DNA of 64,000 bases from Echinarachnius parma (Eukaryota; Echinodermata; Echinoidea; Clypeasteroida; Echinarachniidae): positions 1 to 64,000 of the forward strand of contig JBAMJV010008065.1 of the NCBI GenBank assembly GCA_037951105.1, read 5' to 3'. The translations under genes were made by a program, and so were the position numbers. Under the pieces are notes generated by a model. That model saw only the letters and a list, made by a program, of their open reading frames with translations. It was not told the DNA's origin and searched no databases. Below are positions 5,334 through 38,245 of the stretch, one piece after another. Positions within the stretch are counted from its first letter, which is position 1. The number at the start of each line of letters is the position of its first letter.

Positions 5334-5394
5334 ATGATGGGTTCGTCACGTCTTGTAGCAGGCCTACTCCTCGCAGTGGTACCGATATGTGCAG
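5334..5394 (+). CDS. receptor gene A exon 1: signal peptide
   Basis: The ATG at 5334 opens 20 codons reading MMGSSRLVAGLLLAVVPICA, a textbook signal peptide with a short basic N-region, a leucine/valine/alanine core and a small-residue cleavage end. The exon stops after one base of the next codon at a strong donor (G|GTAAAT at 5394/5395), so the intron is phase 1, like every following extracellular exon. It is too short to be found as an open frame. The next ATG in the exon directly follows the first, so the exact initiator is uncertain by one codon. The function is to route the protein to the cell surface. Confidence 0.75.
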
Positions 5395-5509
5395 GTAAAT
5401 CTATTTCACTTCCGTGTTTTAAATAATCAAAATCTAATCTGAATTAATTGACATTCTTCTAAATTAGGTACATCAAGAAAGAGGGCCAGATTAAACAATG
5501 TTCTTCTTG

Positions 5510-6641
5510 CAGGGGTGTCGATCCGTTTTTGAGATTGGGGGGGGGGGGGGGGGGGGCGAAATTTGAAAATGTTTCCAGAGTGCCCACTGAGAGAGCTAAA
5601 AGCCCCACATTGGCATGCCCGGAAGTTTTATTATGCGCTCATTGAAAGTGTCTTGATGGCTCGAAGACCTGACTTTGGGGGGCACCCACATTTGGGGACA
5701 ATAATGGCCGGGGTCCAGGGGGCGGAGCCCCGGAAGCTTTTAGATTTCAGACATTTGCTCCTAGCATGGGTGTTAGAATTGTATAAAATAGTGAACCTAT
5801 CGTACTCATAACGTATTTTTAAAGGGCATAGCGAGGAAAAGACTGAGCCTTGCATGAGATGGATCCACGTGATCATGTATACTATAGAGCCATCGATATA
5901 TTCTAGGGCATTGGGCTCCCATGAAACTAAGCAAGGGCGTCAACAATTTCTCAAAAGTGTAGGGGAGACATTGCGAGGAAGCGAAGCGACCGAGCGGGGG
6001 AGGGTGTGGGAGGGGGTGTCCCCCTCCCACCATGCCCACAGTAGGGAGCTTTTGTATTTTTGGGCGTGAAATTGTGCGATTTGGTGCACACCTGAGACCG
6101 AAATTTCACGTAATATGAAGTATATAGGTATGGAACCAAACATACATATTGACAAAGGGAGGGGGACAATCTGCTCCTTTTTCAAATGTGGGGGGACATG
6201 ATATTCCAATTTGATTTGCGTTCAGCGCCTATGTACCGAGATTATTTTATTTTCTGTGACGGTGTCCTATCTATAGATGAGGGTTTAATAAACGTCGTTT
6301 GATGTGTGCGTTTGAGAAATTACGCTGCCTAACACATTTCAAAAGGTGAGTTCCCGCAACCCAAATGAAACTTGCAATATGAGAAACTGTATGCGCGCGA
6401 AGCGCGCGGCAAAAAAGAGATTTACAGTCCTTTTCAAACTAAAAAAACCGGCTATTTTGAAGATTAATTATTCATAAATGTGTCTTTCCCCTCTTTGGCA
6501 TTATATCACTCGATTTTTTTCTTCCTCATTTTCGGAATTATTGGGGGTGGGGAGGACGAAATGATATGTTCGCCCCCTAATATTTTCATTGGGGGGGGGG
6601 GGGGGCGACCGCCCCCCTGCCCCCCAGGATCGACACCCCTG
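5510..6641. mobile_element. hAT-like non-autonomous DNA element in intron 1
   Basis: The ends are a perfect 15-bp inverted repeat, CAGGGGTGTCGATCC at 5510 and its complement ending at 6641. They are flanked by an identical 8-bp target duplication TCTTCTTG (5502-5509 and 6642-6649). CAGGG termini with an 8-bp duplication are the mark of the hAT superfamily. A G tract of about 21 G follows the left end, and a G tract plus GCCCCCCTGCCCCC precedes the right end. No transposase is seen, and the short frames inside are low-complexity shadows. It lies wholly within the intron between the signal peptide and CUB exons. Confidence 0.88.
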
Positions 6642-7173
6642 TCTTCTTGATCGCTGTGGACAGTATTCATACTGCTGCTGGAAATGCTGGAATTTACTTT
6701 TTGTTGTTATTTCTATTTAGCAGTCTATTCTAAAAGAAATATAATGAGGATATTTCACATTTTTATCGCTTTGAATTACACAATTTTGTCAAAAGAAATC
6801 TTTTTAGAAAAATAAAAGTTTGTCACAAAAGAAAACGTTTGTCTTGTTTCGAACAGCATGTCAAATATTATAATCATTTTGGGTATGGTCGCTTAGAAAT
6901 TTGTAAATTCATGTTAGGGTAAAGATCAAAATTGGTTTACGAAAAATCATAGGTTAGGGGGTCATTTTCATTGCCGTTGTCATATTCTAACCAGCATGGC
7001 CAACAACATTTTTATTTTCGGTTTTGGAAATTAGTAACGTGATATGATAAGATAAGTTCAAATAATATTTTAAAGAAATATAATCTACCAAAGTTGTCTT
7101 TTGTAATCACGCGTTGGTGCAGAGATTGTATAATGTTTAATCAATATCCACCATTTTGGTATTTTGTTAATAG
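6642..7173 (+). other. remainder of intron 1
   Basis: AT-rich intron sequence. It ends at an acceptor ...TTTTGTTAATAG before 7174. No other gene or repeat is recognised. Confidence 0.6.
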
Positions 7174-7512
7174 CTCATATCAACATGGTCACCGTCACTC
7201 GAGATTCAGAGGGAAACATCCATTCGCCCAACTATCCGTCGAACTATGACTCTAAAACTATTGTCCATTGGAAAGTACAAGCCAAACATCCATGTCGCCT
7301 CATGGTCGAGTTCAACTCATTTTACACGGAAGAAGGCGATGTACTCTGGATAAAGGACAATACTGACCGATCCAGAAACATTAAGTACAGTGGAGATGGA
7401 GCAGGATTCACACCATTTATTTCCAGTGGGCATATCATTGAATTGACATTCACATCCGATGCGTCTTATCAAGAGCAAGGGTTCGACTTGACACTTCGCT
7501 GTTTATTGAAAG
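7174..7512 (+). CDS. receptor gene A exon 2: divergent CUB domain
   Basis: The exon is 339 nt (113 codons), phase 1 at both sides (acceptor TTAATAG|CT, donor AAAG|GTAGGT). It encodes one CUB-like beta-sandwich. Visible marks are GNIHSPNYPSNYDS (the CUB 'SPNYP..Y' turn), W in VHWKV, the FNSFYTEEGDVLWIKD stretch resembling the CUB 'F.....D.l.v.D' core, and a terminal FTSDASYQEQGFDL...RC matching 'F.SD.s....GF...y'. Only two cysteines are present, in non-standard places, so the usual two disulfides are not conserved. CUB domains mediate ligand or partner binding in secreted and surface proteins. A phase 1-1 exon is the usual form for shuffled CUB modules. Confidence 0.85.
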
Positions 7513-8018
7513 GTAGGTATCATTCTTTTGGATTGATACATTCAGTGTTTTAAACAAATTCTGACTTTTCAATGTACCATTAATTTTGAATGAAGTATAC
7601 TTGTCCAAATATCAATACAGATATCCGTAATAAGTTTCCATACATTTGTTATGATTGTGTTTGGATATTTTAATACTATGATCATCGATCAGCAAAATGA
7701 ATGGACCATGGCATTCTAAATTAGTTGTATTTGTTTTACATTTAAACGATAAACCATTGCAGTAAACGACATTCAAATTTATGAGTGCATATAATTTTAT
7801 GGTCTTCGGACTTCAGTTTCTGTTTCTCTCCAAGTGAGCACGAATGTCAAGGTAAAATGATTAATTAATCGGTTCGTTTGTTATTCTCTGGAGAGTTTCC
7901 ATGGGTTTCACTTCTTGCCCGTTGTTTATTTTGCTTCGAAAGCTTCGTCATGCGATATGACACAAACTTAGCGATTATCGGTTTTGGTCATGGCGGGAAG
8001 TGCTTGATCTATTATTTT
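7513..8018 (+). other. start of intron 2
   Basis: AT-rich intron sequence after the CUB donor. No gene or repeat is recognised. The 69-codon frame at 7878-8087 lacks any domain and overlaps the next element. Confidence 0.5.
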
Positions 8019-8494
8019 GAGGGGGTGCCGTTGTCGGCGCACAATCTGTCTGGGCGGATAGCCTGTCCGGGCCGCAGGATATGCTAGCATATCCTGACGG
8101 ATTCGTCAGCTTGTGCTAGGATATGCTGTCGGACGGATATACTGCTCCTAGAGACAAGCTATACTATATAATAGTACAGACTGCCCTCATACTAATATAA
8201 AGGAGTATAAATTACCTCCTCGGTTTGAGGTGGTTTAATCAAATATGAACAAAGAATGGGACTACTATGGTGAGGGGAGAAAGGGGGAGAGCATAGTAAT
8301 GTTAATGGATGGCTAGGGATCAGCCAAGGGGGGAGGGGGGGTGGTAAATAAGGGGATATAAAGGAGTATATATTACCTCCTCGGTTTGAGATGGTTTAAT
8401 TAAATATGAACAAAGAATGTGACTACTATGGGGAGGGGAGAAATGGGAAGAGCATAGCAATGTTTTCTGGATGGCCAGGGGTAGCCAAGGGGGG

Positions 8495-8549
8495 TGTAAT
8501 ATATTGAGATATATTGCTTCATTGTTTGCACCTTTGAAGATACCCTTCT
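8495..8549 (+). repeat. remnant of Gypsy 5' LTR (first 55 bp)
   Basis: The sequence from TGTAATATATTGAGATATAT to ...ATACCCTTCT is identical to the first 55 bp of the 3' LTR at 12215. It starts with TG and is preceded by a G run, as is the base after the 3' LTR, consistent with a GGGGG target duplication. The rest of this LTR, plus gag, protease and most of the reverse transcriptase, is missing where the LINE fragment begins. Confidence 0.8.
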
Positions 8550-9380
8550 CAGACATATCCCTTACCATATCAGACACATCAGTTCCTTCTGTATCTTCAG
8601 CTAAGATTATTGGCGTCACATATGACTCATCCCTGAAAATGGATAAACATGTTTCTTCACTATGTCGTGGACTCCATTTTCAGCTCTCCAACATATCCCG
8701 CATACGACCATATATCACCCAACAAGCATGTGAGCATGCTACCCGAGCCCTCATTTCATCCAAACTCGATTACGCCAACTCACTCCTACATGGTATCCGA
8801 TCAAGCGACATGCAACGTCTTCAGCGAGTACAAAACCGTGCAGCAAAACTCATTTTTAAGGTTAAGAAATACGAACATGTTACCCCTCTGTTAAATGAAT
8901 TACATTGGCTCCCCATCAGTAAACGTGTATTCTTCAAAATTGTAACCATCGTATATAAATGCCTTCAAAATAATACCCCTAGCTATCTTCGCTCTCTCCT
9001 ATCATTTCGTAATTCTAGACCTGGTCTTCGCTCAAACTCCGACATTACAATGCTCCAAATTCCTAGATCCCATTCTAAATCCGGCGACAACTCATTTTTT
9101 ATGTATGCTCCACGTATGTGGAATGATCTCCCTCTCTCTATCCGACTAGCACTCTCATTAGATTCCTTCAAAAAACTACTCAAGACCCACTTGTTTGATA
9201 AGTAAATATGCAGCAATCTTTTATGCATATTTGCATGATTATTTTTGTGTTATGTATTCAGTTGTATTTCATGTATTTAATGTATTATAATGTATTTAAT
9301 TCCCTAAATGTAAAGCGCTATGAAACATGTTTGTATTTAGCGCTATATAAGAAATAGTATTGTATTGTATTGTATTGTAT
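8550..9380 (+). mobile_element. 5'-truncated LINE inserted into the Gypsy element
   Basis: The frame to 9205 encodes about 218 residues of the C-terminal part of a CR1/L2/Jockey-like reverse transcriptase: IIGVTYDSSLKMDKHV, ALISSKLDYANSLLHG, QRVQNRAAKLI, LHWLPISKRVFFKI, and a final MWNDLPLSIR...FKKLLKTHLFDK. The 3' UTR carries AAGCGCTATGAAAC and GCGCTATATAAGAA and ends in repeated TATTG (9356-9380), a typical LINE 3' tail. It runs on from the Gypsy 5' LTR remnant and the Gypsy pol frame resumes directly after the tail, so part of the Gypsy element was lost with this insertion or later. Confidence 0.85.
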
Positions 9381-11278
9381 AGGAGTTCTTGGGGATGGTG
9401 ACGTATTTGAGCCCATTTATCCCCAACCTGTCTAGCCGTACATCGGATCTTCGCGAGCTTCTTCGGCAAGATAGCGAGTTTGTTTGGTCCGAGAATCATC
9501 AGCGAGCCATTGATGACATTCGCGACCAGATTTGTGAGAGTGCTACCCTGCGATACTTCGATCCCAACAAAGAAACCGTTGTGCAGGTAGACGCGTCATC
9601 TCGTGGCTTGGGGGCTACACTTCTTCAAGACGGAGAGCCCATTGCGTATGCGTCAAAAGCGTTGAGTGATGCTGAGACCAGATATGCCAACATTGAACGC
9701 GAAATGCTCGCAGTTGTTTTTGGGTGTGAGTGGTTCCATACGTATGTATTCGGCAAGCACTTCACAGTCGAGTCCGATCATAAGCCGTTGCAAATGATCC
9801 ACCAGAAGCCGCTAACCTCAGCACCACCGCGATTACAGCGTATGTTACTACGCCTTCAGCAGTACGATTTCACCTTAGTCTACCGCCCAGGGAAAGAAGT
9901 CCCGATCGCTGATAGTCTGTCGCGGTCTCCAGGAAATGACAACACACATATCGCGCTCGACATGCAAATCAATCTCATCCAGTTCACAGCGCAACGAATA
10001 GCGGATGTGAAGCGAGAAACCGACGCCGATTCAACACTATCGCAGTTGAAGCGTGTCATAGGCCAAGGATGGCCAGAGCGAATGAAGGACCTCCCATCTC
10101 AGCTCAAACCATACTGGTCATTCCGTGATGAGCTGTCGGTTGAAGATGGGATCATAATGAAAGGTCCTCGTGTTGTAGTGCCAAAGTCAATGCATGAGTA
10201 TATGCTAGGAAAGTTGCATGAAGGCCACCAGGGTTCTACGAAAACAAAGCTTCGCACACGCGATTGTGTTTATTGGTTGAACATCAATAGCGATATCGAG
10301 AGTATTGTAGGCCAGTGTGCTACATGCCAAGAGCACCAGAGAGCGCAACCCAAGGAGCAATTGCTCCCCCACGAGCTACCAACACGACCATGGCAGATCT
10401 TAGGCACTGATCTGTTCCATTTCGAAGGTCGCGATTACCTAATCGTTGCAGATTACTACTCAAAGTTTCCATTCGTCCGCAGAATGCCCGTCGAGTGCAC
10501 TAGCAAAGCTGTCATAGAAGCTACGCAGCAGATCTTCTCTGAGCATGGCATACCCGAGAAGATTATCAGTGACAACGGTCCACACTTTGCTGCCTCAGCA
10601 TACAAGGAATTCGCTAGCACATGGGGCTTCACGCACGTCACGTCGTCACCACACTTCCCCCAATCAAACGGATTTGTTGAGCGAGCAATACAGACCGTTA
10701 AGCGCACACTAGCGAAAGCGACATCATGTAAGCAGAATGTCAACATGGCCCTTCTCTGCCTACGCACAACTCCTATCGACAGTGAATTGCCTAGTCCAGC
10801 GGAGCTTCTTTGTGGTAGGAAGGTCAAGAGTAACCTTCCACTGGTGATACGCAACACCTCAACACGCAAAGAGCAAACCTACCAGCGTCTACAACAGCGG
10901 CAAGATCAACAGAAAGCGAATCATGACCTATCCGCGCATGATCTCAAGCCGTTGAGACCTTCACAACATGTTATGATTCAGGATGCACGCACTCATGCAT
11001 GGACTCCAGCACAAGTCAAAGAGCGCTGTGATGAGCCCCGTTCATACATAGTTGTAACCCCGAATGGTCGCGAGCTACGCCGCAATCGACGTCATATTCG
11101 CGATCTTGAGCCAACAGCGACACACGTTACCCTCGCTAGAACGCCCCAACACGAGCAAAGACAGAAAGAGCACCTTCATGACACCAGACCACGCGATCAA
11201 GAAGTTGTACAGAACGATCAACACCCAAGGACACGGTCTGGAAGAATAATCAAACCCCCAGACAGATTTACCATTTAA
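9381..11278 (+). pseudogene. pol: Gypsy LTR retrotransposon pol, 3' part (RT end, RNase H, integrase)
   Basis: One uninterrupted frame of about 630 residues. It begins at the end of the reverse transcriptase (FLGMVTYLSPFIPNLS). RNase H follows with D in VVQVDAS (about residue 68), E in NIEREMLA (103) and D in ESDHKPL (130). A tether region and a zinc-binding segment come next (LHEGH...CATCQEH, about 277-313). The integrase core follows with D in GTDLF (341), D in ISDNGPHF (395) and E in GFVERA (431), then a basic tail ending RIIKPPDRFTI. There is no ATG at the left edge because the LINE replaced gag, protease and most of RT. Catalytic residues of both remaining domains are intact, so the copy is not old, but it cannot act alone. 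Confidence 0.93.
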
Positions 11279-12214
11279 ACCTGAACAGAGGACACAAAAT
11301 GATGTTTACTTGTTTTGAATGCCTTTACATGTATTTATGCATATAACATGTGAATCTGAAGAGTTTTTAGTACCTCACATTATATGAAACATGCAATTAT
11401 AACGCCCAAGACGCGCGTTATTGGCATTGTGAGTTTATGTTGTGTTCTCAGTCACGGTATTTGTTATTTTGGAAATAGAAGTTATTTTTTAGCCTAGAAT
11501 GCGCTAGTTGTGCCTAGATATATATATTTATTTTTGTTATTTTTGGGGGGCAAGGTTATCGATATTTTTTAGTTAAATAATTTTGAGAGGTAATTGTACA
11601 ATAAATAAAAAGGAACAAAAAGTTATAGACAGATAAAAAGGGCTAGGAAAAGAAAGAAATAACTTTGATTATGTGTTTTGAACTTTGAGGTATATTTATG
11701 ATGCCACATTTTGAATGTATGTTGAAAATAAGTTTTTTAGATATATGTTTCTTTGAAGGTAGAACACAATATGTTGCACATGTGTATTCACGTAGCTTAG
11801 TGCTATTATGAATTACCATGCGAAAAGCATGACACGATATTGTTTAGTTGTGAGTTACATATTTCCTTACATTTCTTGAAGGTACATTGTAGTGTGAAGC
11901 TAGGTTGCACATCACACTATTTGTAAGGAAGTAAACATGAAACGTTTTGCATTAGTGAATATAGGTTATTATTGATTGAGCACAGTAGTATAATAAAAAA
12001 GCATTTCTAAGAAGTTAATTGTGTTTTCATATTGTGATTATAGAACTTGATTATTATAAGGTTAATTTGTATACATGCGGTTCAATAGTTAAGATTATAC
12101 ACTTATACACCATTATAATAGTTGAAGTTAATTGTTTGTATAGTTAGACATGATGGTGACAATTATGATGGCTGAGAAAAGGTGGTTACCCCTTTTCTTT
12201 ATAAACAAGGGGAA
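11279..12214 (+). other. Gypsy 3' untranslated region
   Basis: AT-rich and without coding frames. It ends with a purine stretch AAACAAGGGGAA just before the LTR, fitting the polypurine tract that primes plus-strand synthesis. Confidence 0.7.
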
Positions 12215-12371
12215 TGTAATATATTGAGATATATTGCTTCATTGTTTGCACCTTTGAAGATACCCTTCTATACCATGACATGAACGTCAGAGTTGATACT
12301 GAATAAATACCCTCAAGAAATGTAACTACTGCCTCAAAGATATGATCTGTTGGAGTCTTCAGTATATTTCA
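12215..12371 (+). repeat. Gypsy 3' LTR (157 bp)
   Basis: It starts with TGTAATATATTGAG directly after the polypurine tract and ends ...AGTATATTTCA (TG...CA). It contains GAATAAATACC, a likely polyadenylation signal. The first 55 bp equal the fragment at 8495. It is short for a Gypsy LTR but within the known range. Confidence 0.8.
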
Positions 12372-13255
12372 GGGGGGAGGGGGGGGGGAGGGGGTAAGGG
12401 GATATAACGGAGCATATATATTACCTCCTCGGTTTGAGATGATTTAATTAAATATGAACAAAGAATGGGACTACTATGGGGAGGGGAGAAAGGGAGAGTG
12501 CATAGTAATGTTTTATGGACGGCTATGGGTAGCCAAGGGGTAGCCAGGGGGGGGGGGAGTTGCTGGTTAATGGGATATAAAGGAGTATATTTTACCTCTG
12601 CGGTTGAGGGGTTTAATTAAATAGCAGTCATATTCTCTGTTCATATTATTTTAATTAAACCCCCTCAAACCAAGGAAGTAATATAGTTTCACTTCTTTAT
12701 ATCCCATTAACCATCACCCCCCCCCCCCCCCCCCCCCTTGGCTACCCCTAGCCATTAAGAAAACTTTACTATGCTCTCTCCCTTTTTCCCCTCCCCATAA
12801 TAGTAGTCCCATTCTTTGTTCATATGTAATTAAACCCCTTTAAACCGAGGAGGTAATATATACTCCGCTATATCCCTTTATCCCGCACCCCCCCCCCCCC
12901 TCCCCTCCCCCTTTGGCTACCCCTAGCCATCCAGAAAACATTATTTTGCCCTCCCCCTTTCTCCCCTCCCCATAGTAGTTCCACTCTTTGTTCATATTTA
13001 ATTAAACCCCCTCAAACCGAGGAGGTAATATCTACTCCGTTATATCCCCTTAACCCGCACCCCGACCCTTGGTTACCCCTTGCCTACCCTAGCCATCCAT
13101 AACACATTGTTATGCTATCCTTCTTCTCCCCTTCCCATATAGTCTAAACCCCCTCAAACCGAGGAGGTAATACACTGGGCCCAAAAAGAAACTCATAATT
13201 GTTCACATGGTCATATCTTGAAAATCTGTCCTTCAAAATGAACCATTTAAAGCGG

Positions 13256-13985
13256 TGGTCACAACCCGCCGTACTTGCAAGTGCGTGCCCCGTGCGTGCT
13301 GTCTACTTGCAAAAACGTGGGCAAAATTTGGGTATCCGTACGTGGTGAGTACCGACTCAGTACCGACTCAGTACGGATTTGGGAGCACGCAGACACGACG
13401 TAGCACTTTTAGTGCACGAGGAACTTTCGCTGCGTTCGCTGCGTTTTCGCTGCGTTCTGCAGCCAATGAGTGCACGTGCGTGCTGCGCACGTGATAAGTG
13501 CGTGGTCCGTGCTTACTCGGCACTTCCCCAGTTCAACTGTCCAATGAGCACGCAGAACTCACGTGGACCGTACCGAGTAAGCACGTGCTCCGCACTTACA
13601 ACGCACGTTGTGCGCACTGATTTCTGCAGTATAATATGAGCAGAAAAGGTTGTTCGCACTTGCACGCACTTAGTGAGTAAGGACACCGTACGTGAGCAGC
13701 ACGTGTAAGTACGGCCTCCGTACGATAGCGTGGCAACCGCACGGAGACCGTACGTTGTAAGCACGTTGTAAGCACGTTGTAAGCACGTACAACGCACTTA
13801 CCACGTGCGCAACGTACGATGCACGCAACCGCTCACGGCCAGGCGTGGCGTGCGGGCCACGTACTTACACCGTTCGTGTGACGTGCGTTGCCGTTACTCC
13901 CTCCCTACGTTTTCAGAAAAACGTGGCGGCCGTGGCCTCCCCAAAAACCGTACGGACTAAAAACACGCACGGTGGGTTGTGACCA
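13256..13985. mobile_element. CG- and ACGT-rich insert nested in the Tc1-like element
   Basis: The insert is bounded by the inverted words TGGTCACAACCC (13256) and GGGTTGTGACCA (ending 13985), then CGCCGT against ACGG. The inside is built almost wholly from GTACG, CACGT, GCACTT and TGCGTGC words and is strongly CpG-rich against an AT-rich background, with local direct repeats such as GTAAGCACGTT repeated three times near 13758. No coding domain is seen. It is probably a non-autonomous DNA element of unknown superfamily. The target duplication is not resolved. Confidence 0.55.
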
Positions 13986-14113
13986 GGGCAAAGCCACACA
14001 GGATTACTTCAATACTATACTCTGATAACATGTCGGTATCCAAACGGTTACCTTACTGACATAACTGAAAAATGCACTGGCATGGAACCGCTAGCTGTAT
14101 CACATGTCACAGC

Positions 14114-15654: not shown

Positions 15655-15864
15655 AAAACACTGATGTCATTAGCACTTTTACAGACAGTGGACTAGTACA
15701 AATAATGACACACGTTGCAGAGCACACTTGTATAGATAACTGGGACATCCTGAACGCTGATACAGTATGCAGGGAAGCATGGTATCCAGGAGCCTACAGT
15801 GTAACTTTTAATGACGCCTATCTGAGAGAAAATATCCTGGGGAATGTTACTCATTGTGACAAAA
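15655..15864 (+). CDS. receptor gene A exon 3: SRCR domain, first half
   Basis: 210 nt, phase 1 in and out (TTCAG|AA; AAAA|GTAAGA). It encodes the N-terminal part of a scavenger receptor cysteine-rich domain. SGLVQIMT matches 'GRVEV', then HTCIDNWDILNADTVCRE matches the SRCR signature 'GtVCDDgWd...A.VvCRq', with YPGA following and THCD closing the half. Three cysteines are present here and three in the next exon, six in total. A six-cysteine domain split over two exons is the group A SRCR form. SRCR domains bind microbial or host ligands in innate immune receptors. Confidence 0.85.
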
Positions 15865-16280: not shown

Positions 16281-16358
16281 CACATTTCCGCATCCAAGAC
16301 TGTCCAGTAAGTCAAAGGAACTGCACAACGTTTCAATTGGCAACGATTTTTTGCAACA
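16281..16358 (+). CDS. receptor gene A exon 4: SRCR domain, second half
   Basis: 78 nt, phase 1 (CCTCTAG|CA; AACA|GTAAGT). It encodes HFRIQDCPVSQRNCTTFQLA and TIFCN, matching the end of SRCR domains ('L.dC......nC.h..da.v.C') with the last three of six cysteines. Gene B has an exon of the same length on the - strand at 38168-38245. Too short for ordinary gene callers. Confidence 0.82.
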
Positions 16359-17004: not shown

Positions 17005-17283
17005 CTTTGGCATTTCGGGGATGTTACAATTTTCGTCAACAAAGATCAACCTTTTTAGAAAATCAGAAGAACTACACGAGACAACAGTGCTTGAAATATT
17101 GCAATGCCACGTACATAAGTCCCCAGTTTGCGATGCTTCATCAAGAGAACTCATGTGCATGCTTCAACAAAACTGCGGTGGATCTAGCTGAACTAAGACA
17201 AGACAGTAACGAATGCCGTCGAGTTGTCAGACGAACGAGAAGGATAAATACTCGGCAGGACTTTTGGGTTTCTGTCTATGATA
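17005..17283 (+). CDS. receptor gene A exon 5: WSC domain
   Basis: 279 nt, 93 codons, phase 1 (CATATGCAG|CT; GATA|GTAAGT). It encodes a WSC domain: GCYNF at the start, RQQCLKYC as the 'C...C' pair, FAMLHQENSCACFN as the 'f.gl....CfC.n' core, NEC, and a closing FWVSVYD like the WSC 'isvY' end. WSC domains are putative carbohydrate-binding modules. The CGG motif before the last strand is replaced by a basic stretch (RRVVRRTRR). The gene B copy is the same length and about three quarters identical by eye, with changes clustered before the closing strand. Confidence 0.85.
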
Positions 17284-17540: not shown

Positions 17541-17777
17541 CTTCCATCGAATTCTGTGGGAGTTACCCGACACTTGAGAACGGAACATGGGTCTCGGATG
17601 ATAGTGATTCGCATTTGGGGTCTACGATACATGCAACCTGTGATAAAGGCTACACCCTTCAATCTACAAGCAACTTACTCACCTGTCAGATCGAAACCTC
17701 AACATCCACGCTTCGAGTGGAATGGCAAGAGGATAGAAAATTAATTTCTTGTGTTCCTCAAGAGAATCAAATTACAA
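17541..17777 (+). CDS. receptor gene A exon 6: Sushi/CCP domain
   Basis: 237 nt, 79 codons, phase 1 (CATTCTAG|CT; ACAA|GTGCGT). It encodes one Sushi (complement control protein) module: FCGSYPTLENGTW, GSTIHATCDKGYTL, LLTCQ, VEWQ and ISCVPQ, giving the four-cysteine C-C-C-W-C pattern. CCP modules give protein-protein contacts in complement regulators and receptors. The donor has GTGCGT rather than GTAAGT. Gene B carries the same exon at 36049-36285 with the same length. Confidence 0.88.
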
Positions 17778-18215: not shown

Positions 18216-18248
18216 GTGTTCGCCCCGGGTCAGAAACAATTGTTAAAG
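18216..18248 (+). CDS. receptor gene A exon 7: stalk mini-exon
   Basis: 33 nt, phase 1 (TTGGTTCAG|GT; AAAG|GTAAAT), encoding SVRPGSETIVK in frame between the CCP and TM exons. The matching 33-nt exon of gene B (35686-35718) encodes SLPGPESTVN with the same phases. Conserved length and phase in both genes support these mini-exons as real. They form a Ser/Pro/Thr-rich linker near the membrane. Confidence 0.7.
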
Positions 18249-18658: not shown

Positions 18659-18697
18659 GAACATCATCCTTAAAGCCAACTGAGAACCAATTGCAAG
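18659..18697 (+). CDS. receptor gene A exon 8: stalk mini-exon
   Basis: 39 nt, phase 1 (TTGAACAG|GA; CAAG|GTAAAT), encoding GTSSLKPTENQLQ. It matches the 39-nt exon 35131-35169 of gene B (ETQSLGPSETPFP). It extends the juxtamembrane stalk. Confidence 0.7.
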
Positions 18698-18960: not shown

Positions 18961-19057
18961 GCACAGGAAGAGGAATGACGGGAATACCAATCATAAAATC
19001 TATCTGTGTGATCTGTATTATTATTATCTCTGCATCCTCTGTTCTGCGACTAAAACG
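18961..19057 (+). CDS. receptor gene A exon 9: transmembrane helix with a lysine
   Basis: 97 nt, phase 1 in, phase 2 out (TTATTTCAG|GC; AACG|GTAAAT). It encodes a short linker, then the hydrophobic run IPIIKSICVICIIIISASSV and basic stop-transfer residues LRLKR. The lysine codon is AAA at 18996-18998. In gene B the aligned codon is ATA (Ile) at 33953-33955, a single-base difference. A basic residue inside a transmembrane helix is what activating immune receptors use to pair with an acidic residue of an ITAM adaptor; that role here is inference. Confidence 0.8.
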
Positions 19058-19326: not shown

Positions 19327-19453
19327 GCTTAGGAGGGAAGGGGAAAAGACCCAATCAAGTAGACAAGGAACAACGGGAACAAGGTTGAACCACGGCCACC
19401 ATAACTACAATTCATCTGGACGAAAAATGCCACTTAGAGTATTACCAACGTGA
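19327..19453 (+). CDS. receptor gene A exon 10: short cytoplasmic tail and stop
   Basis: 127 nt beginning in phase 2 after TTTAACAG and ending at TGA (19451-19453). It encodes a basic tail of about 41 residues (LRREGEKTQSSRQGTTGTRL ... LRVLPT) with one tyrosine and no ITIM, ITAM or ITSM motif. The start is homologous to the start of gene B's large tail exon (LWRGKKPGSTGPGTAG). With it the ten exons sum to 1500 nt, 499 residues. A GTGAGT overlapping the stop (19450) could act as a donor to an unseen exon, so the stop is likely but not certain. Confidence 0.72.
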
Positions 19454-19830
19454 GTCCAAGTCTCATAACAAATACTACTGACCCAACGTCTAATTCCGAT
19501 GAAGAGATTTACCCCCGCCAGACATCCGGCAATCCGAGTTCTTCTGCTGAGTGTCATATCTACCATGATCTGGACGCGTCTTCACTCCATCTAGGCGAAG
19601 CAATGAAGCGGTAAAACGGAGTGAGGAGTCCTCAAACCTGACGAGGGAGACGCTGTTTCAACAACTCGATTCCCCCTCTTTCCCTTCCACTATTTTGGAG
19701 CTGGCACGACTAGATGAGCTCGCCTTCGACCAGTCGAAGTGTTCAATCCACCTGGTCTCTCCTACCAATACCAGAAAATACCCCCAAGACCCACAGGACT
19801 GTATTTGAATTGGGCTGTCCAAACTGAATC
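19454..19830 (+). pseudogene. decayed remnant of the long cytoplasmic tail
   Basis: Directly after the stop, another frame reads PSLITNTTDPTSNSDEE, then NPSSSAECHIYHDLDASS and LHLGEAMKR before a stop at about 19611. It matches gene B residues around IPSLVTHTSDPMSNSNED and IYQDLDAEAISSLQLGEAM. Weaker DNA identity continues (TGACGAGGGAGACG, GAGCTCGCC) to about 19740. Relative to gene B about 90 codons are deleted before this segment and the frame is broken. It therefore lies in the 3' UTR of gene A and shows that A once had, or was copied from a gene with, the long tail. Confidence 0.8.
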
Positions 19831-20398
19831 TAGTGGCCGACATCTATATAAGGCATATATCAGATGAATCTGTAGATGGGCACACTACGGTAGCTGCGCT
19901 TATCCCATTTTGACTGCTGTCATGGCTGTACGACCGCAGAAACACAAGGGGATTCACTGGCTGATGTACCCCTTCAACCGATTATCAAGGAATTCATCTT
20001 TATCTGAAAGCAAATTGATGATCTATTCCATGTTTACCATGGCAGCGTTAATTTTGTATATATATCTATATTTATATATAAAGGTTCTCAACGGAGTAAG
20101 ATATGACATTATAGCTTGCCTGATATTATATCAGTATGAAATACATTATAGTTTGCCGATGCTTGCAAAAGGGATACTCTACATTTAGGAAAACTATTAA
20201 ATGTTAATGTGTGCACAGCAGCCTAAATTTCCCCTTTTCTAACGCGATATTCAACGAGAGGCTCATGTCAAATAAAATATATAAACATTGTTCAATTTCA
20301 TTTTGTAAAAGAAAATCTTGCCTTTTGATGTCAAAATTCTAAAGAAAAAATTCGTCACTAAAATTTTAGAAGATTTCATAGTGTCTGCCAAGGGCGTC
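19831..20398 (+). other. 3' flank of receptor gene A
   Basis: AT-rich. A polyadenylation signal AATAAA lies at 20271-20276, a possible 3' end of gene A. No gene is seen. Confidence 0.5.
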
Positions 20399-26155: not shown

Positions 26156-26159
26156 TTAA

Positions 26160-28634: not shown

Positions 28635-30459
28635 TCAGTGCGTACTCTGCTCCAGCGTGTAGTACAATGGCTGAGGATCTGTTTCATCCAAAAGTCTACT
28701 CACCTTCCCCGCAAAAACCCCTAACATATCAACAGACTCTGTGTCCGTCTTAATGTCTTTGCCATTAAGATGGTTAATATGACTTTCTGAGTGACACACA
28801 TTTTCATACGGGACGTAGAGGATGTTGGTTACCATGCCGTTGTCATTTTCGTCGGTTTCCATGGAAACGTGCTCATTTGTCTGATCAGGATGAGATTGAT
28901 TTACTGCCAGAGCAGAGAAGGAATTCAAACTTTCGAGAAAGGTTATTGACGAAGATTCGGGAATTATTTCTTCAAAGGGAAGAACCTCGTAATCATGTGC
29001 CTTCGATCCAGTGGACGTCTCTGGACGTTGTTCTGTGGGGTAGCAGTTCGGATTCCGACCATCGTTTTCCTCTTTCATGCTTCCAGAAGATTCTGTCGGT
29101 GTATTATTATTGAAGTCGGAGATGGAGTAATATTTGACTTCGGAATTTCTGCACCCTGGTTGATTGCTTCTACTGGTGGTATGAGGATACATGCAAACAT
29201 TAATTTCTGATTTTGACCAGAGGTCTGCCCTCGCCTGGCAACCCTGGGATGGCATGGGACACTCGCTCTCTTGATCATGCGGAGAATCCCCAGCAAAATT
29301 GTCGTTACTTTTTCGGGATCTTGGAAGGGTAAGAGGGTACTCTTTGGAAATCGAAAGGGGTGCAGCGGGGTACCCATTTGGAAGTGGAGGGTGTCGAGGA
29401 GGGTACTTACTTGGGACCAGAGGGGGTACAACTGGGCATACCTCGGTGATAAAAGGGGGTACAGTTTCATAGCCGGTCGTGGAAACGGTGGTGGACTTTC
29501 TATCAGCTCCTGTATCACCTATGGAATAATACGCAACTTCGGAGCGTCGATTATCCCGATGACTAACAGACCTGTCTGCCACCATCGACCTATCAACATC
29601 AAACTTTAATTCACTATATGCAGATTCATCCGATGCATTTGCTGCTGTGAAGTTGGCCGCTGGATTCTGATGTGAACGTTCGATACTGTGAAAGGACATC
29701 TCATCATTCAGAACACCGTCTTCTTGGTCTTGGGGCATTCTTCGACCTCTGTTAGGGGTTGTCGAAGCTCGCGAGGCTTGGCCCATGGTCAGGTCTTGAT
29801 CAGGGCGAGCTCCTGCAGGCGCGCCGACTCCATGAGCATTGGGATCTGAGGTTGACGGATGAGGAGTAGTTGGACTTTCGTCTCCCTCGTCACGTTCGTG
29901 GGCGCCACCTCGATGTCTTATATTCATCGCTTCGCCAAGCTGTAGTGAAGAGATGGCTTCTGCGTCCAGATCCTGGTAGATATTACCTTCAGTAGTAGAA
30001 CTCGGATTGAAGGATGTCAGGCGGGGGGAACTATCCTCATTGGAATTAGACATTGGGTCACTAGTATGTGTTACGAGACTGGGAATTGAAAGAGTGATCG
30101 GGAAATAATTTTGAAATGTAGCTTCTAGCTCCTCACGGTCATCATAAGAATCATCATCGGGGTCGTTAAGATTATTATTTTCGGACATATTATGTGAAAT
30201 ATATCTTCGAACGGGCAATGCGCTTTCGTCAGAGAACGCGTAATGATTTTCTACCGGGAGTGTATTCAGCGTTGCCAAGTTAGAGATGTCATTCCTGGTT
30301 GGTTGTCGGTATCTGGTCATCAGGCTGGTCATGTTGGTCATATGGCTGTGTGTCCCTTCTCTTCCAGATAAACTGTGGCCGGAGTGTTCATCATTGATGT
30401 GAATTGCCCCTGCAGTTCCGGGTCCTGTTGATCCGGGCTTTTTTCCCCTCCACAGAGGT
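28635..30459 (-). CDS. receptor gene B last exon: 607-residue ITIM-like cytoplasmic tail
   Basis: 1825 nt, entered in phase 2 (CTCTTACAG|A at 30459) and ending at a stop at 28635. It begins LWRGKKPGSTGPGTAG, homologous to gene A's tail, and runs 607 acidic, Ser/Thr/Asn-rich, probably disordered residues. Numbered from the Met codon at 30341, tyrosine motifs fit (S/T/I/V/L)xYxx(I/V/L): SAYSEL (Y242), VAYYSI (Y271), TGYETV (Y291, also the ITSM form TxYxxV), VKYYSI (Y404), VPYENV (Y512). Near-matches are NIYQDL (Y122), HDYEVL (Y451) and PLYYTL (Y560). A proline-rich stretch (residues 303-340) has three PL..SKYP-like units and PxxP cores. In vertebrates such motifs recruit SHP-1/SHP-2 or SAP-type SH2 proteins. 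Tail function is inferred from motifs only. Confidence 0.85.
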
Positions 30460-33400
30460 CTGTAAGAGACGCGGGAAGTTTTGAGGTAAAGATTATGAAT
30501 TCATCTTAATGGTAACACACACAACATAAAATATATTAATTCCCCAAAATCATGGGCGTCGATCACGGTGGAGGGGGGGGGGGGGGGGGGTAGTATTTGA
30601 GGTGGGGGTGGCCTGTATTGTTATCCCCCCCCCCCCCCAATATTTGTGATTCAAATATATATCAAAATATTAAAATAAAGGGACATTGCCCCCTATCATT
30701 CATTATGTGAAATTGATCTAATTTAAACCACATCTGAGAGTGCTTATCTGCCCAAATCCAAAATCTTCCTGGGGCTATGGCCCCTGGACCCCATTATAGT
30801 AATTTGATCCGGTCCCCTGTTCACATACAATCGTTATATTTCGGAACTCTCGCTATGCCCACTAAAATGTAACTTACTATTATATCTAACTATTTGATAG
30901 CTAACTATGTTTCCTTTTTGAATCTGGATCTCTTTTGTTCTATTATACAGAATCCAAAAGCTTCCGGGGGCTGCGCCCCCTGGTCCCACATTATACTCAT
31001 TTGACCATGTCCCCATTACACGTATAATAGTTTTATTCAGGAACTCTCAGCGCTATGCCCACTTAAATTGTACTAACTTTATTTCCTATTTAAATCTGGA
31101 CAACATCTTTAGTTCTGTGTATCCCCTGGCCCGCATTAAAGCTATTTGACCCTGTCCCTATTACATGTATAATAGTTTTGTTCCGGACCTCTCGCTATGC
31201 CCACTAAAATGAAGCTAATTATATATCTAACTCATAATAATACCTAACTATTTTGTTCCTATTTGAATTTGGAAAATATCTTTAGTTCTGTAACGCAAAA
31301 CTCCAAGGCTCCCAGGGGGCTCCGCCCCCTGGCCCCCATTTTAGTCATTTGACCCGGTCCTCTGTACACGTATGAAAGTTTTATTCAGGAACTCTCGCTA
31401 TGCCCACTCAAATGTAGCTAACTATATATCTATATAATTATTTAATCAAAGCTAAATATGTTCCTGTAATTTGGACAACATCTTTAGTTCAGTTAAAGAT
31501 GAATTCCAGTTTTGGGAAAGAAGCCGAATACATTTATAGTATCTTTTGTTCTATTATACAGAATCCAAAAGCTTCCGGGGGCTGCGCCCCCTGGTCCCAC
31601 ATTATACTCATTTGACCATGTCCCCATTACACGTATAATAGTTTTATTCAGGAACTCTCAGCGCTATGCCCACTTAAATTGTACTAACTTTATTTCCTAT
31701 TTAAATCTGGACAACATCTTTAGTTCTGTGTATCCCCTGGCCCGCATTAAAGCTAATTTAACCCTGTCCCCATTACATGTATAATAGTTTTGTTCCGGAC
31801 CTCTCGCTATGCCCACTAAAATGAAGCTAATTATATATCTAACTCACAATAATACCTAACTTTTTTTTTCCTATTTGAATCTGGAAAATATCTTTAGTTC
31901 TGTAACGCAAAACTCCAAGGCTCCCGGGGGCTCCGCCCCCTGGCCCCCATTTCAGTCATTTGACCCGGTCCTCTGTACACGTATGAAAGTTTTATTCAGG
32001 AACTCTCGCTATGCCCACTCAAATTTAGCTAACTATATATCTATATAATTATTTAATCAAAGCTAAATATGTTCCTGTAATTTGGACAACATCTTTAGTT
32101 CAGTTAAAGATGAATTCCAGTTTTGGGAAAGAAGTCGAATACATTTATATTGATCATTATTGTTGAATAAGTATTAAAATAGGGCTTGTGTGGTAAAATC
32201 AGAACCTAAGCATCGTTAAATACAGAAATATCGGAAGAAATCCAATATCCGCCTGTGAAATTTATAAATCCACCGCCAGTTCGGACCTGTCCACGCCGCT
32301 AGCGCTGGGGGAGATATCGACAAGCTGGGGACAAGCCCGTATATAGCGAACACCTCGTGTACTCGCACGTAGCCATTGTACGTAGCGTATGGGCGATTCC
32401 GAGTTGGCGATCTCTATCTGCAGCAGATCAAGTTATAATTTTGCAAATATATCAATTAGTAGGCGGTTTCTTGGCCAAATTTGGATAATCCTATATTAGT
32501 ACAATTATATTCTTTCACATTATTGGTAATAAGAGCTTCCATTTCTTTTTTTTGAGAGGGGGGCGTTTCCAAAACTGCCCTTACCTTTAATCAAAAATCC
32601 AAAAGCTTCCGGGGGCTCCGCCCCTGGACCCCCATTGTGATTCCATTCAGTGTTCCATCAGGGTGCTTGCAATTTGCACTTTACTTTCTTCAAATTTCTA
32701 AACAGCTCCATCCAAAAGCTTGTACCCAACTCCCCCCCCCCCCCCCCCCCGTTCATAACAAATCCTGGGCACACTGCTGGGTTGGTCGCTTCGCCCCCTC
32801 ACCGAAGATGGTCGAAATGACGTACCACCCCCCCCCCCCCCCCGCCCCCAATGGCGAGAAGAAATCGACGCCCATGCCCAACATTTATAAGTATACAAAT
32901 AAGAACCAAATTATCTTGTTGAACGAGGGTACTGGAAATCAGAGCTCTTTATAATGAGGTTCTTTACTGTGCCATATTTGACTAAAGTGTCATTAAGTTT
33001 TAACTGGGAGGTGTTATGTTTGTTTTTTAATATTATAGGTAATAATAACAGATTGGAATTATGTTTATAAGTAAATGATCTTTGTATATGAATTATATGG
33101 TTATTCAATCAGTTATCATGGTTATTATTGCCGTTTGAACCTATATAAAACATACAAGATAATTATCTTTATGTCCTCCATTTTTCCTCCCTCGATATTG
33201 ATCCTGACAACGAAACACTAAGATAATGCATAATTCTGTTTTTTAGTTTTTTTCGAATTTATTCAAGGAATACTTGCCTATGAGTCCAGCAAGAGAGTTT
33301 GCTGGTGTTAAGTGCAGGTTAGGAGGTTTGTGACAGAATGTCCGTTTCCTGGCAAAACAAAATGTGAGTTGTGATTGTTAGTCAAAAGTGCTGATTTTAA

Positions 33401-33896: not shown

Positions 33897-33996
33897 CCTC
33901 TTCGCCGTATTACAAATGCAGATATAAGAAGAATACATATCACACAGACTGGTATCACGACTGCCACAGTGACTGTCGTTATTCCTCTGTCTTGGC
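33897..33996 (-). CDS. receptor gene B transmembrane exon
   Basis: 100 nt, phase 1 in (TTTCATTTCAG|GC at 33996) and phase 2 out (GG|GTAATA). It encodes QDRGITTVTVAVVIPVCVIC and then ILLISAFVIRRRG, an uncharged hydrophobic helix closed by arginines. It aligns with gene A's exon (shared RG, T, CVICI, ISA) with one extra codon and isoleucine where A has lysine. It anchors the receptor with the long tail in the cytoplasm. Confidence 0.82.
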
Positions 33997-35130
33997 CTGA
34001 AATGAAAAAAATATGATACAAGTATAATGGTCATTGTTTACATTGTACTACATGTATTTACTCTGAATTAAAAGGGAACATATGAATATAAAATGTCAGG
34101 ACAGGCACGTATAATAACTATTACATGATAAAGTTGTTTGCTAAAAAATAATGAGTCAGTATAAGCCCATCTTTCAATCCTAGCAGGATCTTTTTCTGGG
34201 CAGAAGTGCCCAATAATACTAACAATTTATTTGATAAATGTCAGAAGCCTATACAAATGTGTAAAACGATTTATTAACAACTATTCATATTATCTCATAT
34301 ATCATTCTTATCTTGAAAGGCTGTCTGTTTTAGATTTATTTTTAGACTTGTAGTGAGTGAACGTTATCCAGTAAAGTGGTCCAGTATTGGTTTTCCCGAA
34401 GGTGTCATTGACTGACATTGACTTCGCTTCATCGAAATGCGTTACGCAACGCCTTTCAATCATTAGTATATCTTCACATATTTAGAAAGCCATTTGAAAA
34501 ATCAAATTTCTTTTAATTATTATGTTACCATAAGCCAAATAGAGTACAGAAGCCATGACGTCATAAAAATCTTTTTTTGGAATTTTCAAATTTGAACTTC
34601 ATTTTCCGAAAGAGCATACAAAATAATGTCTAAATACCAACAATCGATTGAATATGTTCAGTATTGCCTGAGATATGCCCATCCGAATTAATTTGTTGTC
34701 AATAGGCAATCAGTGTTATAGTGGTCTTGTTCATAACTTTATGAACCAGAGCACTATAACACTGATTGCCTATTGAAGTAAAATTCTTTCGGATGGGCAT
34801 ATCTCAGCCAATACATAACATATTCTATTGATTTTTGGTATTTGGACATTATTTTTGATGCTCTTTCGGAAAATGAAGTTCAAATTTGAAAATTCGAAAA
34901 AAAGATTTTTGATGACATCACACTTCACCACTCTATAACAAGGTACGCGTGAACTCCGAAAGCTCTTATTCAATTTGACAGAGATAATTGATCACTTTAA
35001 TGCTGAATTCACTATTTTCCTAACATTTTATTTAGAATCAGGGCAAGTCAATTATTAAAATGATTATACGTTGATGATTATAAGAAAATTTTTTTGTATT
35101 ATCTTTATATGAATGTATTGTATTGTTTAC
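33997..35130 (-). other. gene B intron with a long hairpin
   Basis: Positions 34554-34925 form an inverted repeat with arms of about 180 bp (left CATGACGTCATAAAAATC, AACTTCATTTTCCGAAAGAG, GGCAATCAGTGTTATAGTG; right as the complement). This fits a foldback MITE in the intron. No other feature. Confidence 0.65.
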
Positions 35131-35169
35131 CTGGAAAGGGTGTCTCCGATGGTCCTAAGGATTGTGTTT
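35131..35169 (-). CDS. receptor gene B stalk mini-exon 2
   Basis: 39 nt, phase 1 (ATGAACAG|AA; CCAG|GTAAAC), encoding ETQSLGPSETPFP. Same length, phase and position as exon 8 of gene A. Ser/Pro/Thr-rich juxtamembrane linker. Confidence 0.7.
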
Positions 35170-35660: not shown

Positions 35661-35685
35661 TCATAAATATAAACTTTACCTTTAC

Positions 35686-35718
35686 CATTGACAGTTGATT
35701 CTGGTCCGGGCAGAGAAC
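35686..35718 (-). CDS. receptor gene B stalk mini-exon 1
   Basis: 33 nt, phase 1 (TTTTTTGCTAG|GT; AATG|GTAAAG), encoding SLPGPESTVN plus a split codon. Same length and phase as exon 7 of gene A (SVRPGSETIVK). Confidence 0.7.
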
Positions 35719-36048: not shown

Positions 36049-36285
36049 TAGTTTCTTGATTATCTTGAGGAACACATGAAAGGAATTCTCCCTCTTCTTT
36101 CCATTCCGCCCGTAGAATTGATGTTGAGGATTCGATCTGACAGGTGAGTGAGTTGCTCGTAGTATGAAGGGTGTAGCCTTTATCACAGGTTGCACGTATC
36201 GTTGACCCCAAGCGCGAATTGCTATCATTCGAGTTCCATGTTCCGTTCTCCAGCGTCGGATAACTCCCACAGAATCCTATAGAAG
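36049..36285 (-). CDS. receptor gene B Sushi/CCP exon
   Basis: 237 nt, 79 codons, phase 1 on both sides (AAATTCCAG|CT at 36285; ACTA|GTATGT at 36049). It encodes FCGSYPTLENGTW, GSTIRATCDKGYTL, LTCQ, AEWKEE and LSCVPQ, the full four-cysteine CCP pattern. Closely similar to exon 6 of gene A; differences are scattered, such as SNDSNSRLG against SDDSDSHLG. Confidence 0.88.
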
Positions 36286-37152
36286 CTGGAATTTCGTAGA
36301 AAATAAAGGAGCACAAAAGAATTAAACTTTTATCCATTAAATTCGATAAAACGTTAGCCAGTCAGAAGTCTTTCAGAAAGAATCAACATTAACATATATT
36401 TTCTTTGATCCATTAACGTTGTCGAATTCAACCAAAATCACTTTCACACTTCCCTTGTACTTGTTGTTTGGCTTATGGTAACATAATTCATCCACAATTG
36501 CTGCTCTCTACCAAGGTGTATAAATGGGGACCCGTAAGGATGGGAACGTGTGTCCTTAGCACTGTGTGTGCCTAACAGGCGACTGGCTGGAATACTCCCT
36601 AGGGAGTGGAAAATGTGCACTTAATGTGCAGGAATGATTGCAGTGTGTATCCGTTTACCGGGGTAATAATACTCGTGTAAAGCGCTATGATCCCCACGGG
36701 AATAGTGCTATATAAATAACCGTCATTATTATTAATGAAATGGGTTTTAATTTGTTAAATTTTCCCCTAATTATCAAGATATTAAAGATTGAATTGGAAT
36801 GCGTTCCGGAACGATTAAGTAAAAAGTATCCGAATTCGGTTACTACGCGCGAACGATCGGGATAAAATCTGAAATCAATGTTTACATTTCCACTATGTTA
36901 ACAATTTTCTTTTTCTATGTTACTTTCACATCTAATTTAATTTGTAAAAAAAATTGTAATTTAGGTCTCAAAAATGTTTTTTTTTAATTCTTCTGAAGTA
37001 AACACAATCAACACAATTAACATTATTTAGACGATTTAAATTATTACTTTGCTAACTTTGATAAGTAACTGAATTATCATTTTTCAACTGCATGAATATG
37101 GTCGATAATGTCCAGAATCGTCTGCTTTTAAAATTTTACCATTCATACTTAC
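36286..37152 (-). other. gene B intron with a SINE-like repeat
   Basis: Positions about 36520-36735 hold a short interspersed repeat whose end reads AAAGCGCTATGA, GTGCTATATAAATAACCGTC and then ATTATTATTA, the same kind of tail as the LINE ends at 2330-2404 and 9310-9380. A tRNA-like head is not clear. No other feature. Confidence 0.55.
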
Positions 37153-37431
37153 TATCATAGACAGAAACCCAAAAGTCCTGACGACGAGTATTTCTCCTTC
37201 TACTTCGTCTGACATCTTGACCGCATTCGATATTGTCTAGTATTAGTTCAGCTAGATCCACTGCAGTTTTGTTGAAGCATGCACATGAGTTCTCTTGATG
37301 AAGTGTCGCAAACGGGGGACTTGCGTAGTCATTGCAATATTTCAAGCACTGTTGTCTCTTGTACTTCTTTTGATTTTCTAAAAAGGTTGATCTTTCACGA
37401 TGAAAATTGTAACAGCCCCGAAATGCCAAAG
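37153..37431 (-). CDS. receptor gene B WSC exon
   Basis: 279 nt, phase 1 (CATACGCAG|CT at 37431; GATA|GTAAGT at 37153). It encodes LAFRGCYNFHRERSTFLENQ, the QQCLKYC pair, FATLHQENSCACFNKTA, IEC and a final FWVSVYD. Same total length as gene A's WSC exon: one residue lost near CNDY and one gained near NTRRQDF. A carbohydrate-binding role is possible from the family. Confidence 0.85.
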
Positions 37432-38167
37432 CTGCGTATGAAAAAGAAGTCGAATACATTGTTCTCAAAACATTCAGGTCGAATGTAAATTATTTCGTTC
37501 AAAGCCTGGAGCATTTTCGAAAGATACAAATTACAAGAAAATGATTATCTGACTATCTGGCTATGTTGACGGATACATTATGGTGTAAAACAAACATTTG
37601 TAAATTTAAGCAAATGAGTAAGTGGACAAGACAACGTCTAAGTAATGACTTTAACCAAAACATTCAAACAAATTATGTTGCGGCCATGACTCTCACACGT
37701 TGTACACTTCATGGTGAGCTGGGTGCCGACGTTCCCAAAGTTGCAAATGTTTCCAAGCAGTGGGATCCTATTATAATAATTGCGATGTTCGTAGAGTATT
37801 CTAAACTTCTAGTCCGTTTTCTAAAAAAGGACTAAGAACAATTTTCCTTAGAATAGAACCGAGCCTAGCATTTTTACTTCGATTTGAATCATACTTATAC
37901 AACACAATAATGCTCTCACATGGAAGCCAGTCGAAGGTTATGGTTTAGACTGGTGTTAGCTTAGTAACAGTCGTAGTATTTTTTTTTACTGATTTCTTGT
38001 ACGTAGGGAATAGGAATGTTTTGAACTATTGTCCAAAACAATACAAAATTTATTGCTAGCAAGTAGCGCCAACAACTTTCAAAGATTGTTTATTTTCATT
38101 TTGGGGGCGTTGGAGTGTAGGGTTCATTGGTTGCCATGTAGGATGGTGTGTTTTTTCGTGTACTTAC
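37432..38167 (-). other. gene B intron between SRCR and WSC
   Basis: Aligns patchily with intron 4 of gene A (GTAAGTACAC, CACACCATCC, CCCTACACTCC; GGGAACGTCGGCACCCAG; TGAAGTGTACAACGTGTGAGA), showing that the duplication included introns. No gene inside. Confidence 0.7.
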
Positions 38168-38245
38168 TGTTGCACAAAATCGTTGCCCATTGAAACGTTG
38201 TACAGTTCTTTTGACCAACTGGACAGTCTTGAAGGCGGAAATGTG
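38168..38245 (-). CDS. receptor gene B SRCR second-half exon
   Basis: 78 nt, phase 1 (CACTCTAG|CA at 38245; AACA|GTAAGT at 38168), encoding HFRLQDCPVGQKNCTTFQWA and TILCN, the C-terminal half of an SRCR domain with three cysteines. The partner exon with the first half, the CUB exon and the signal peptide exon are not found to the right of it in this window. Either they lie beyond 64000 or gene B is 5' incomplete. Confidence 0.8.

Follow-up and report, generated by a model that had tools for sequence, protein, structure and literature searches.

The first 64,000 nucleotides of contig JBAMJV010008065.1 (assembly GCA_037951105.1, forward strand) from the echinoid Echinarachnius parma, hereafter the window, carry two receptor-like genes, A and B, that are inverted duplicates of one CUB-SRCR-WSC-Sushi receptor gene. 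Gene A lies on the plus strand (5334-19453) and has 10 modelled exons for a product of 489 amino acids, in the order signal peptide, CUB, SRCR, WSC-like, Sushi (CCP), stalk, transmembrane (TM) segment, and short tail. Gene B lies on the minus strand, from 38245 down to 28635, and its seven exons are the counterparts of exons 4-10 of gene A. The two are convergent, tail to tail, with 9.2 kb between the stop codons, and thus form a small gene cluster. Gene B ends in a long tail with tyrosine motifs, and a decayed remnant of such a tail lies behind the stop codon of gene A, whose short tail very probably arose by decay of an ancestral long one.

Inverted copies of one receptor gene

The shared exons of the two genes have the same lengths for the second SRCR exon (SRCR2; 78 bases in A and 78 in B), the WSC-like exon (279/279), the CCP exon (237/237), and both stalk exons (33/33 and 39/39), and the TM exons, at 97 and 100 bases, are one codon apart. 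In both genes, the six exons from SRCR2 to the TM exon start in phase 1 and the tail exon starts in phase 2, and the gene models thereby bear out a preliminary description of this DNA, which had claimed equal lengths and phases for SRCR2, WSC, CCP, and the two stalk exons. All modelled introns of both genes have GT donors and AG acceptors, and the locus is eukaryotic by the introns in its genes. Amino acid identity between A and B amounts to 20 of the 25 residues in SRCR2, 80% in the WSC-like exon, and 75% in the CCP exon. The synonymous divergence (dS) is 0.28 and the alignable part of the SRCR2-WSC intron is 82% identical; because of these two values, and with tails that differ, it is unlikely that A and B are alleles or an assembly artefact. 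The WSC-like exons differ at fewer synonymous sites (6/56) than the other shared exons (33/112; p 0.0066, a post hoc comparison), which hints at gene conversion between A and B.

At an E-value threshold of 0.1, the Pfam list for gene A comprises CUB, SRCR, and Sushi, all of which exceed their cut-offs, together with a sub-threshold WSC and CDCP1_CUB_6, whereas the list for gene B comprises Sushi. Gene A belongs to the SRCR superfamily by its PF00530 score (32.4 bits, cut-off 26.1), and the window includes just the final 25 residues of the SRCR domain of gene B. The WSC domain of gene A scores 17.9 bits against a cut-off of 27.8 and is therefore named WSC-like here; that of gene B has no Pfam match at the same threshold. 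An AlphaFold model of the WSC exon was unusable (mean predicted local distance difference test, pLDDT, 50.2), and the single match of this exon among PDB sequences (E 0.64) was meaningless. Both WSC-like exons contain an RxRR stretch, RTRR in A and RSRR in B, which we take to be a furin-like site, at the place expected for the last WSC cysteines. The scan of the gene B CCP exon against viral contigs found no relative, and Rfam gave 0 matches.

Tail remnant and constraint on gene A

The tail exon of gene B has 607 open codons up to a stop at 28637-28635, a length with a chance probability of about 6e-14 at its own base composition. It encodes 22 tyrosines, of which six are held by residues 1-279, none of them in a motif, and the other 16 lie beyond. 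Four match the pattern [SIVL]xYxx[ILV] (Y281, Y310, Y443, and Y551) of the immunoreceptor tyrosine-based inhibitory motif (ITIM), and one (Y330) matches TxYxx[VI], the pattern of the immunoreceptor tyrosine-based switch motif (ITSM), so that all five are within residues 281-551. This count exceeds the expectation from 10,000 shuffles, both for the ITIM- and ITSM-like motifs together (5 against 0.99, p 0.0024) and for the ITIM-like motifs alone (4 against 0.76, p 0.0073), and the 607-residue tail with ITIM/ITSM-like motifs that had been noticed in the preliminary description is thus confirmed. An internal repeat of this tail (RRSEVAYYSIGD and RNSEVKYYSISD) does not reach significance against shuffled sequences (p 0.06).

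The tail exon of gene A encodes 41 residues; these include a single tyrosine and lack ITIM- or ITSM-like motifs. The hydrophobic segment of its product, at residues 423-444 (GIPIIKSICVICIIIISASSVL), contains one lysine, at residue 428 near the outer edge, whereas the best hydrophobic segments of gene B contain no charged residue. The tail of about 41 residues without a motif and the TM lysine had both been described before; overlooked was what follows the stop codon of gene A (19451-19453). The DNA at 19455-19872 can be aligned with 30084-29621 of the gene B tail exon over 380 bases that are 80.5% identical, with a score of 197 against a maximum of 28.5 in 200 shuffles. Among the 24 gaps of this alignment, 19 are not multiples of three and break the frame, although 19441-19605 translated in the frame of B still has 62% identity over 58 residues. 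The homology is detectable up to residue 280 of the B tail, directly before the first ITIM-like tyrosine (Y281). Past 19872, the gene A DNA aligns with the distal B tail no better than expected by chance (score 19.5, highest shuffle 30.5), with the exception of a 16-base G run further on (32 against 28.5), and a local alignment under looser settings, in which gaps are cheap, extends to 20215. A candidate poly-A signal lies downstream (Table 1), and the remnant would therefore fall in the 3' untranslated region of gene A. The direction of change is suggested to be from long to short because the frame is open in B and broken in A, a comparison that has no outgroup, and the common ancestor of A and B would accordingly have been long-tailed.

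Splicing of gene A to a long ITIM-bearing tail is unsupported in the window, as a tblastn search with the whole B tail found no second copy of residues 280-607 on the plus strand, and the B tail itself is on the opposite strand. Two weak matches, one at 12.7 kb (E 0.12) and one at 13.4 kb (E 0.37), are inside gene A, upstream, and are not tail-like. Related non-coding repeats with G runs are found downstream of the gene A tail (20389-21521, plus strand) and in the TM-tail intron of gene B (30551-32876, minus strand).

The outer part of gene A differs from the remnant in how it has diverged from B. Gap density per 100 aligned bases is 6.3 in the remnant and 7.4 in the alignable SRCR2-WSC intron, whereas the SRCR2, WSC, and CCP exons have two gaps in 591 aligned bases, each of three bases; at the rate of the remnant, about 27 frame-breaking gaps would be expected in these exons and none was seen (P about 2e-12). 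The TM and second stalk exons were excluded from the 591-base count; in them the nucleotide aligner gave small gaps that were mostly non-triplet (6/7), although the lengths of these exons differ by just 3 and 0. Differences by codon position are 26/127, 27/125, and 21/128 (20.5, 21.6, and 16.4%) in the remnant and 8/49, 6/48, and 9/49 in its best-aligned first part, and they rise to the third position in the three domain exons (14/194, 24/195, and 31/195; 7.2, 12.3, and 15.9%). Taken jointly, the three domain exons have a ratio of nonsynonymous to synonymous divergence (dN/dS) of 0.49 (SRCR2 0.36, WSC 0.93, CCP 0.36), and all 251 shared codons have one of 0.62 (bootstrap 0.43-0.93). The kept frame, the codon-position pattern, and dN/dS therefore indicate that the outer part of gene A was retained while the tail drifted. 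Gene A is probably a live short-tailed gene, because its SRCR2-WSC-Sushi exons held their frame during the decay of the tail. A dead pseudogene is unlikely given 10 open exons, GT-AG introns, and no frame-breaking gap in SRCR2, WSC, or CCP.

Table 1. Modelled exons of the two receptor genes and associated features in the window.
Feature	Position	Strand	Basis
Gene A exon 1, signal peptide	5334..5394	+	Gene model; hydrophobic start judged by eye
Gene A exon 2, CUB	7174..7512	+	Gene model; Pfam PF00431, E 7.1e-13
Gene A exon 3, SRCR exon 1	15685..15864	+	Gene model; PF00530, E 1.2e-7 across exons 3-4
Gene A exon 4, SRCR exon 2	16281..16358	+	Gene model; Pfam
Gene A exon 5, WSC-like	17005..17283	+	Gene model; Pfam score under cut-off
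Gene A exon 6, Sushi/CCP	17541..17777	+	Gene model; PF00084, E 4.1e-5
Gene A exon 7, stalk	18216..18248	+	Gene model
Gene A exon 8, stalk	18659..18697	+	Gene model
Gene A exon 9, TM segment (includes lysine 428)	18961..19057	+	Gene model; hydrophobic segment
Gene A exon 10, tail of 41 residues, TGA stop	19327..19453	+	Gene model
Decayed long-tail remnant behind gene A stop	19455..19872	+	DNA alignment to B tail exon
Candidate poly-A signal AATAAA for gene A	20271..20276	+	Sequence motif
Gene B tail exon and stop, 607 residues, five tyrosine motifs (four ITIM-like, one ITSM-like)	28635..30459	-	Gene model; motif count
Gene B TM exon	33897..33996	-	Gene model; hydrophobic segment
Gene B stalk exon	35131..35169	-	Gene model
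Gene B stalk exon	35686..35718	-	Gene model
Gene B Sushi/CCP exon	36049..36285	-	Gene model; PF00084, E 8.9e-6
Gene B WSC-like exon	37153..37431	-	Gene model; similarity to A
Gene B SRCR exon 2 (first exon found)	38168..38245	-	Gene model; similarity to A

Several repeats and mobile elements occur in and around these genes. The CUB-SRCR intron of gene A contains a retroelement open reading frame (ORF) of 631 codons with RNase H and integrase domains (9383-11275, plus strand), and the stalk-TM intron of gene B contains a fold-back element (34565-34910) with 172-nt arms that are 90% complementary and 2 nt apart. A tandem array of units of about 151 nt is located at 42327-43197. A perfect 99-nt inverted repeat is found at 58933-59031 and 61040-61138, 2 kb apart, and the ORFs between its copies appear Penelope-like by eye; the one that was scanned (60338-60844) had no Pfam match.

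Proposed paired-receptor signalling and other readings

Passages of PMC3533184 describe paired receptors as clustered genes with conserved ectodomains, of which one member has an ITIM in the cytoplasmic region and the other a short tail with a basic residue in the TM region. Genes A and B are alike in the outer part that they share (75-80% identity across the SRCR2, WSC, and CCP exons), gene B has the ITIM of an inhibitory member by motif only, and gene A has by sequence the short tail and the TM lysine of an activating one. The paired-receptor reading proposed in the preliminary description therefore stands in part: the anatomy fits the definition, and the decayed tail behind the gene A stop adds support for a long-tailed form that turned short-tailed, but the CUB and first SRCR exon (SRCR1) of gene B are not in the window. 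On this reading, two copies of one receptor gene would have taken opposite signalling forms, the activating one being made from the inhibitory one by tail loss. The phosphorylated ITIM/ITSM tyrosines of B would recruit an SH2 phosphatase (SHP-2 or SHIP, for example) and damp the cell, whereas A, without a tail, would pair through its TM lysine with an acidic adaptor of the type that carries an immunoreceptor tyrosine-based activation motif (ITAM) and activate the cell. Passages of PMC4258407 take a lysine within the TM region to mark DAP10/DAP12 partners. Both products may recognize the same or related ligands through the common SRCR-WSC-Sushi part. The full activating/inhibitory mechanism is a tentative proposal for A and B, possible but somewhat short of probable.

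Several observations, gathered here and in the next three paragraphs, weigh against this proposal. Adaptor, kinase, or phosphatase genes were not recognized in the window, in a scan for them that was not exhaustive. The starts of the A and B tail exons show only a weak alignment (score 25, with shuffles reaching 25.5), so the first lesion in the gene A tail is not settled. The short-tailed activating KIR of cattle also derive from long-tailed forms, with an ITIM disrupted by mutation of its tyrosine, although by the account in passages of PMC4258407 they spread by recombination with one short tail; the tail of gene A is its own and decayed, which is another route.

Gene A may also be a non-signalling short-tailed copy (a decoy, ligand sink, or adhesion form) whose lysine binds no adaptor and which competes with B for ligand. 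Such a copy would be consistent with a tail that decayed behind an ectodomain that retained its frame. Moreover, lysine 428 is the sixth of the 22 residues of the segment and could, near the outer edge, sit at the membrane surface. Constraint on the membrane part of gene A is not visible in the single A/B comparison, in which dN/dS is 1.05 for the TM exon and 0.84 and 1.26 for the stalk exons, as it is 0.93 for the WSC-like exon, all from few codons. On the other hand, a lost tail combined with a TM lysine matches what passages of PMC3533184 give for activating members, and we consider the non-signalling copy rather unlikely.

The main weakness of the paired-receptor reading is that gene B possibly encodes an incomplete surface receptor. 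The 5' end of gene A is complete by its model, whereas gene B has a TM exon and no CUB or SRCR1 in the 25.8 kb upstream. Between 38245 and 64000 (25,755 bases), searches recovered neither exon: with tblastn over both strands of 38264-64000, the best E values were 2.5 (CUB), 0.42 (SRCR1), and 1.6 (signal peptide), and with phmmer against 249 minus-strand ORFs of at least 28 amino acids, they were 1.6, 0.12, and 1.5, respectively. None of the best CUB and SRCR1 matches resembles a domain, the candidate ORF for SRCR1 has no SRCR features by eye, and blastn of the gene A 5' region gave no gene B counterpart in the window. Sister exons are readily seen in such searches, since SRCR2 of A finds that of B at E 1.9e-17, although the signal-peptide exon (20 residues) is too short for them to exclude. 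Upstream of SRCR2 in B, the homology to A continues for about 17 bases, and the stretch beyond contains reverse-transcriptase and endonuclease ORFs. Either the first exons of gene B are therefore past the window edge, behind a very long intron filled with transposons, or its 5' end is truncated. If B were a 5'-truncated partial duplicate that yields no surface receptor, only A would work and there would be no pair. We regard this as improbable, as the 607-codon tail is open, the exon frames and splice sites are intact, and the lack of a frame-breaking gap between A and B in SRCR2, WSC, and CCP would be hard to explain for a dead copy unless its death was recent; moreover, the first exons may lie past 64000.

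The tail of gene B could also be a phosphotyrosine docking or sorting tail (Grb2- or AP2-type) that is not inhibitory, in which case B would act as a scavenger receptor in signalling or endocytosis, with A as a variant that lacks the tail. The motif excess comes from a single sequence with no orthologue. The less specific Yxx[ILV] occurs nine times against 2.98 expected (p 0.0013), one of which is YxN; this motif, VPYENV, doubles as a Grb2-type YxN site. YxxPhi motifs can serve as sorting signals, and SRCR receptors are scavenger receptors by family. A docking or sorting tail is nevertheless unlikely, as five of the motifs also have the -2 residue of an ITIM or ITSM (p 0.0024).

Relation to known receptor systems

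The locus resembles KIR, LILR, PILR, Ly49, Siglec, and SIRP, which are described in passages of PMC3533184 as linked genes with similar ectodomains, where one member has an ITIM tail and the other a short tail and a basic TM residue. Unlike the vertebrate paired receptors, A and B have a CUB-SRCR-WSC-Sushi ectodomain, not one of immunoglobulin (Ig) or C-type lectin type, and the 5' end of B was not found in the window. Membership by descent in the KIR, Ly49, LILR, or PILR families is not indicated, because Pfam (E 0.1) found no Ig-like or C-type-lectin-like ectodomain in either gene.

Among invertebrates, the fester and fester co-receptor (FF/FcoR) of Botryllus schlosseri come close, as they likewise occur in linked pairs. 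In passages of PMC12065747, FcoR are reported to have a Sushi domain and ITIM, hemITAM, or core tyrosine motifs, and an integration of activating and inhibitory signals is proposed for the FF/FcoR pairs. However, FcoR carry V-type and C2-type Ig domains along with Sushi, each pair joins members of two different families, and it is the tail that holds the activating-type motif (PMC12065747, same passages), whereas the partners here are close duplicates, one without the long tail. Pfam found no Ig domain in A or B, and descent from such a receptor is likewise not indicated. In amphioxus, BbLcLRR has ITIM-like tyrosines and was associated with SHIP1, and less with SHP1/2, in Jurkat cells; it differs from A and B by a leucine-rich repeat (LRR) ectodomain, and the available passages of PMC8211107 describe no activating partner.

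The ectodomain of A and B is of a kind known from sea urchins, since CUB, WSC, and Sushi are among the commonest partners in the SRCR set of S. purpuratus (38 Sushi, 36 WSC, and 35 CUB domains; PMC10855680, in part). The available passages of that source do not place CUB, SRCR, WSC, and Sushi in one protein in the order of gene A, and the word ITIM is absent from its main text. Among the matches listed from titles and abstract openings of the open-licence literature, none named an SRCR/WSC/Sushi pair with a long and a short tail. The pair may have arisen independently. The combined claim, that in a non-vertebrate CUB-SRCR-WSC-Sushi receptor without Ig or lectin domains an activating form was made from an inhibitory one by loss of the ITIM tail, with a remnant past the new stop codon and a lysine in the TM segment, as an independent origin of paired receptors, is possible and somewhat doubtful as a whole.

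If the signalling fits the anatomy, paired activating and inhibitory receptors would be a recurrent solution that needs neither an Ig nor a lectin ectodomain. The tail remnant points to its direction, with the long-tailed form first and the short-tailed form derived, and the two genes offer a concrete pair in which an ITIM/ITAM-type balance could be tested on an ectodomain of scavenger-receptor type. Should they not signal in this way, the locus would still show how the outer part of a duplicated receptor persisted through the loss of its tail.

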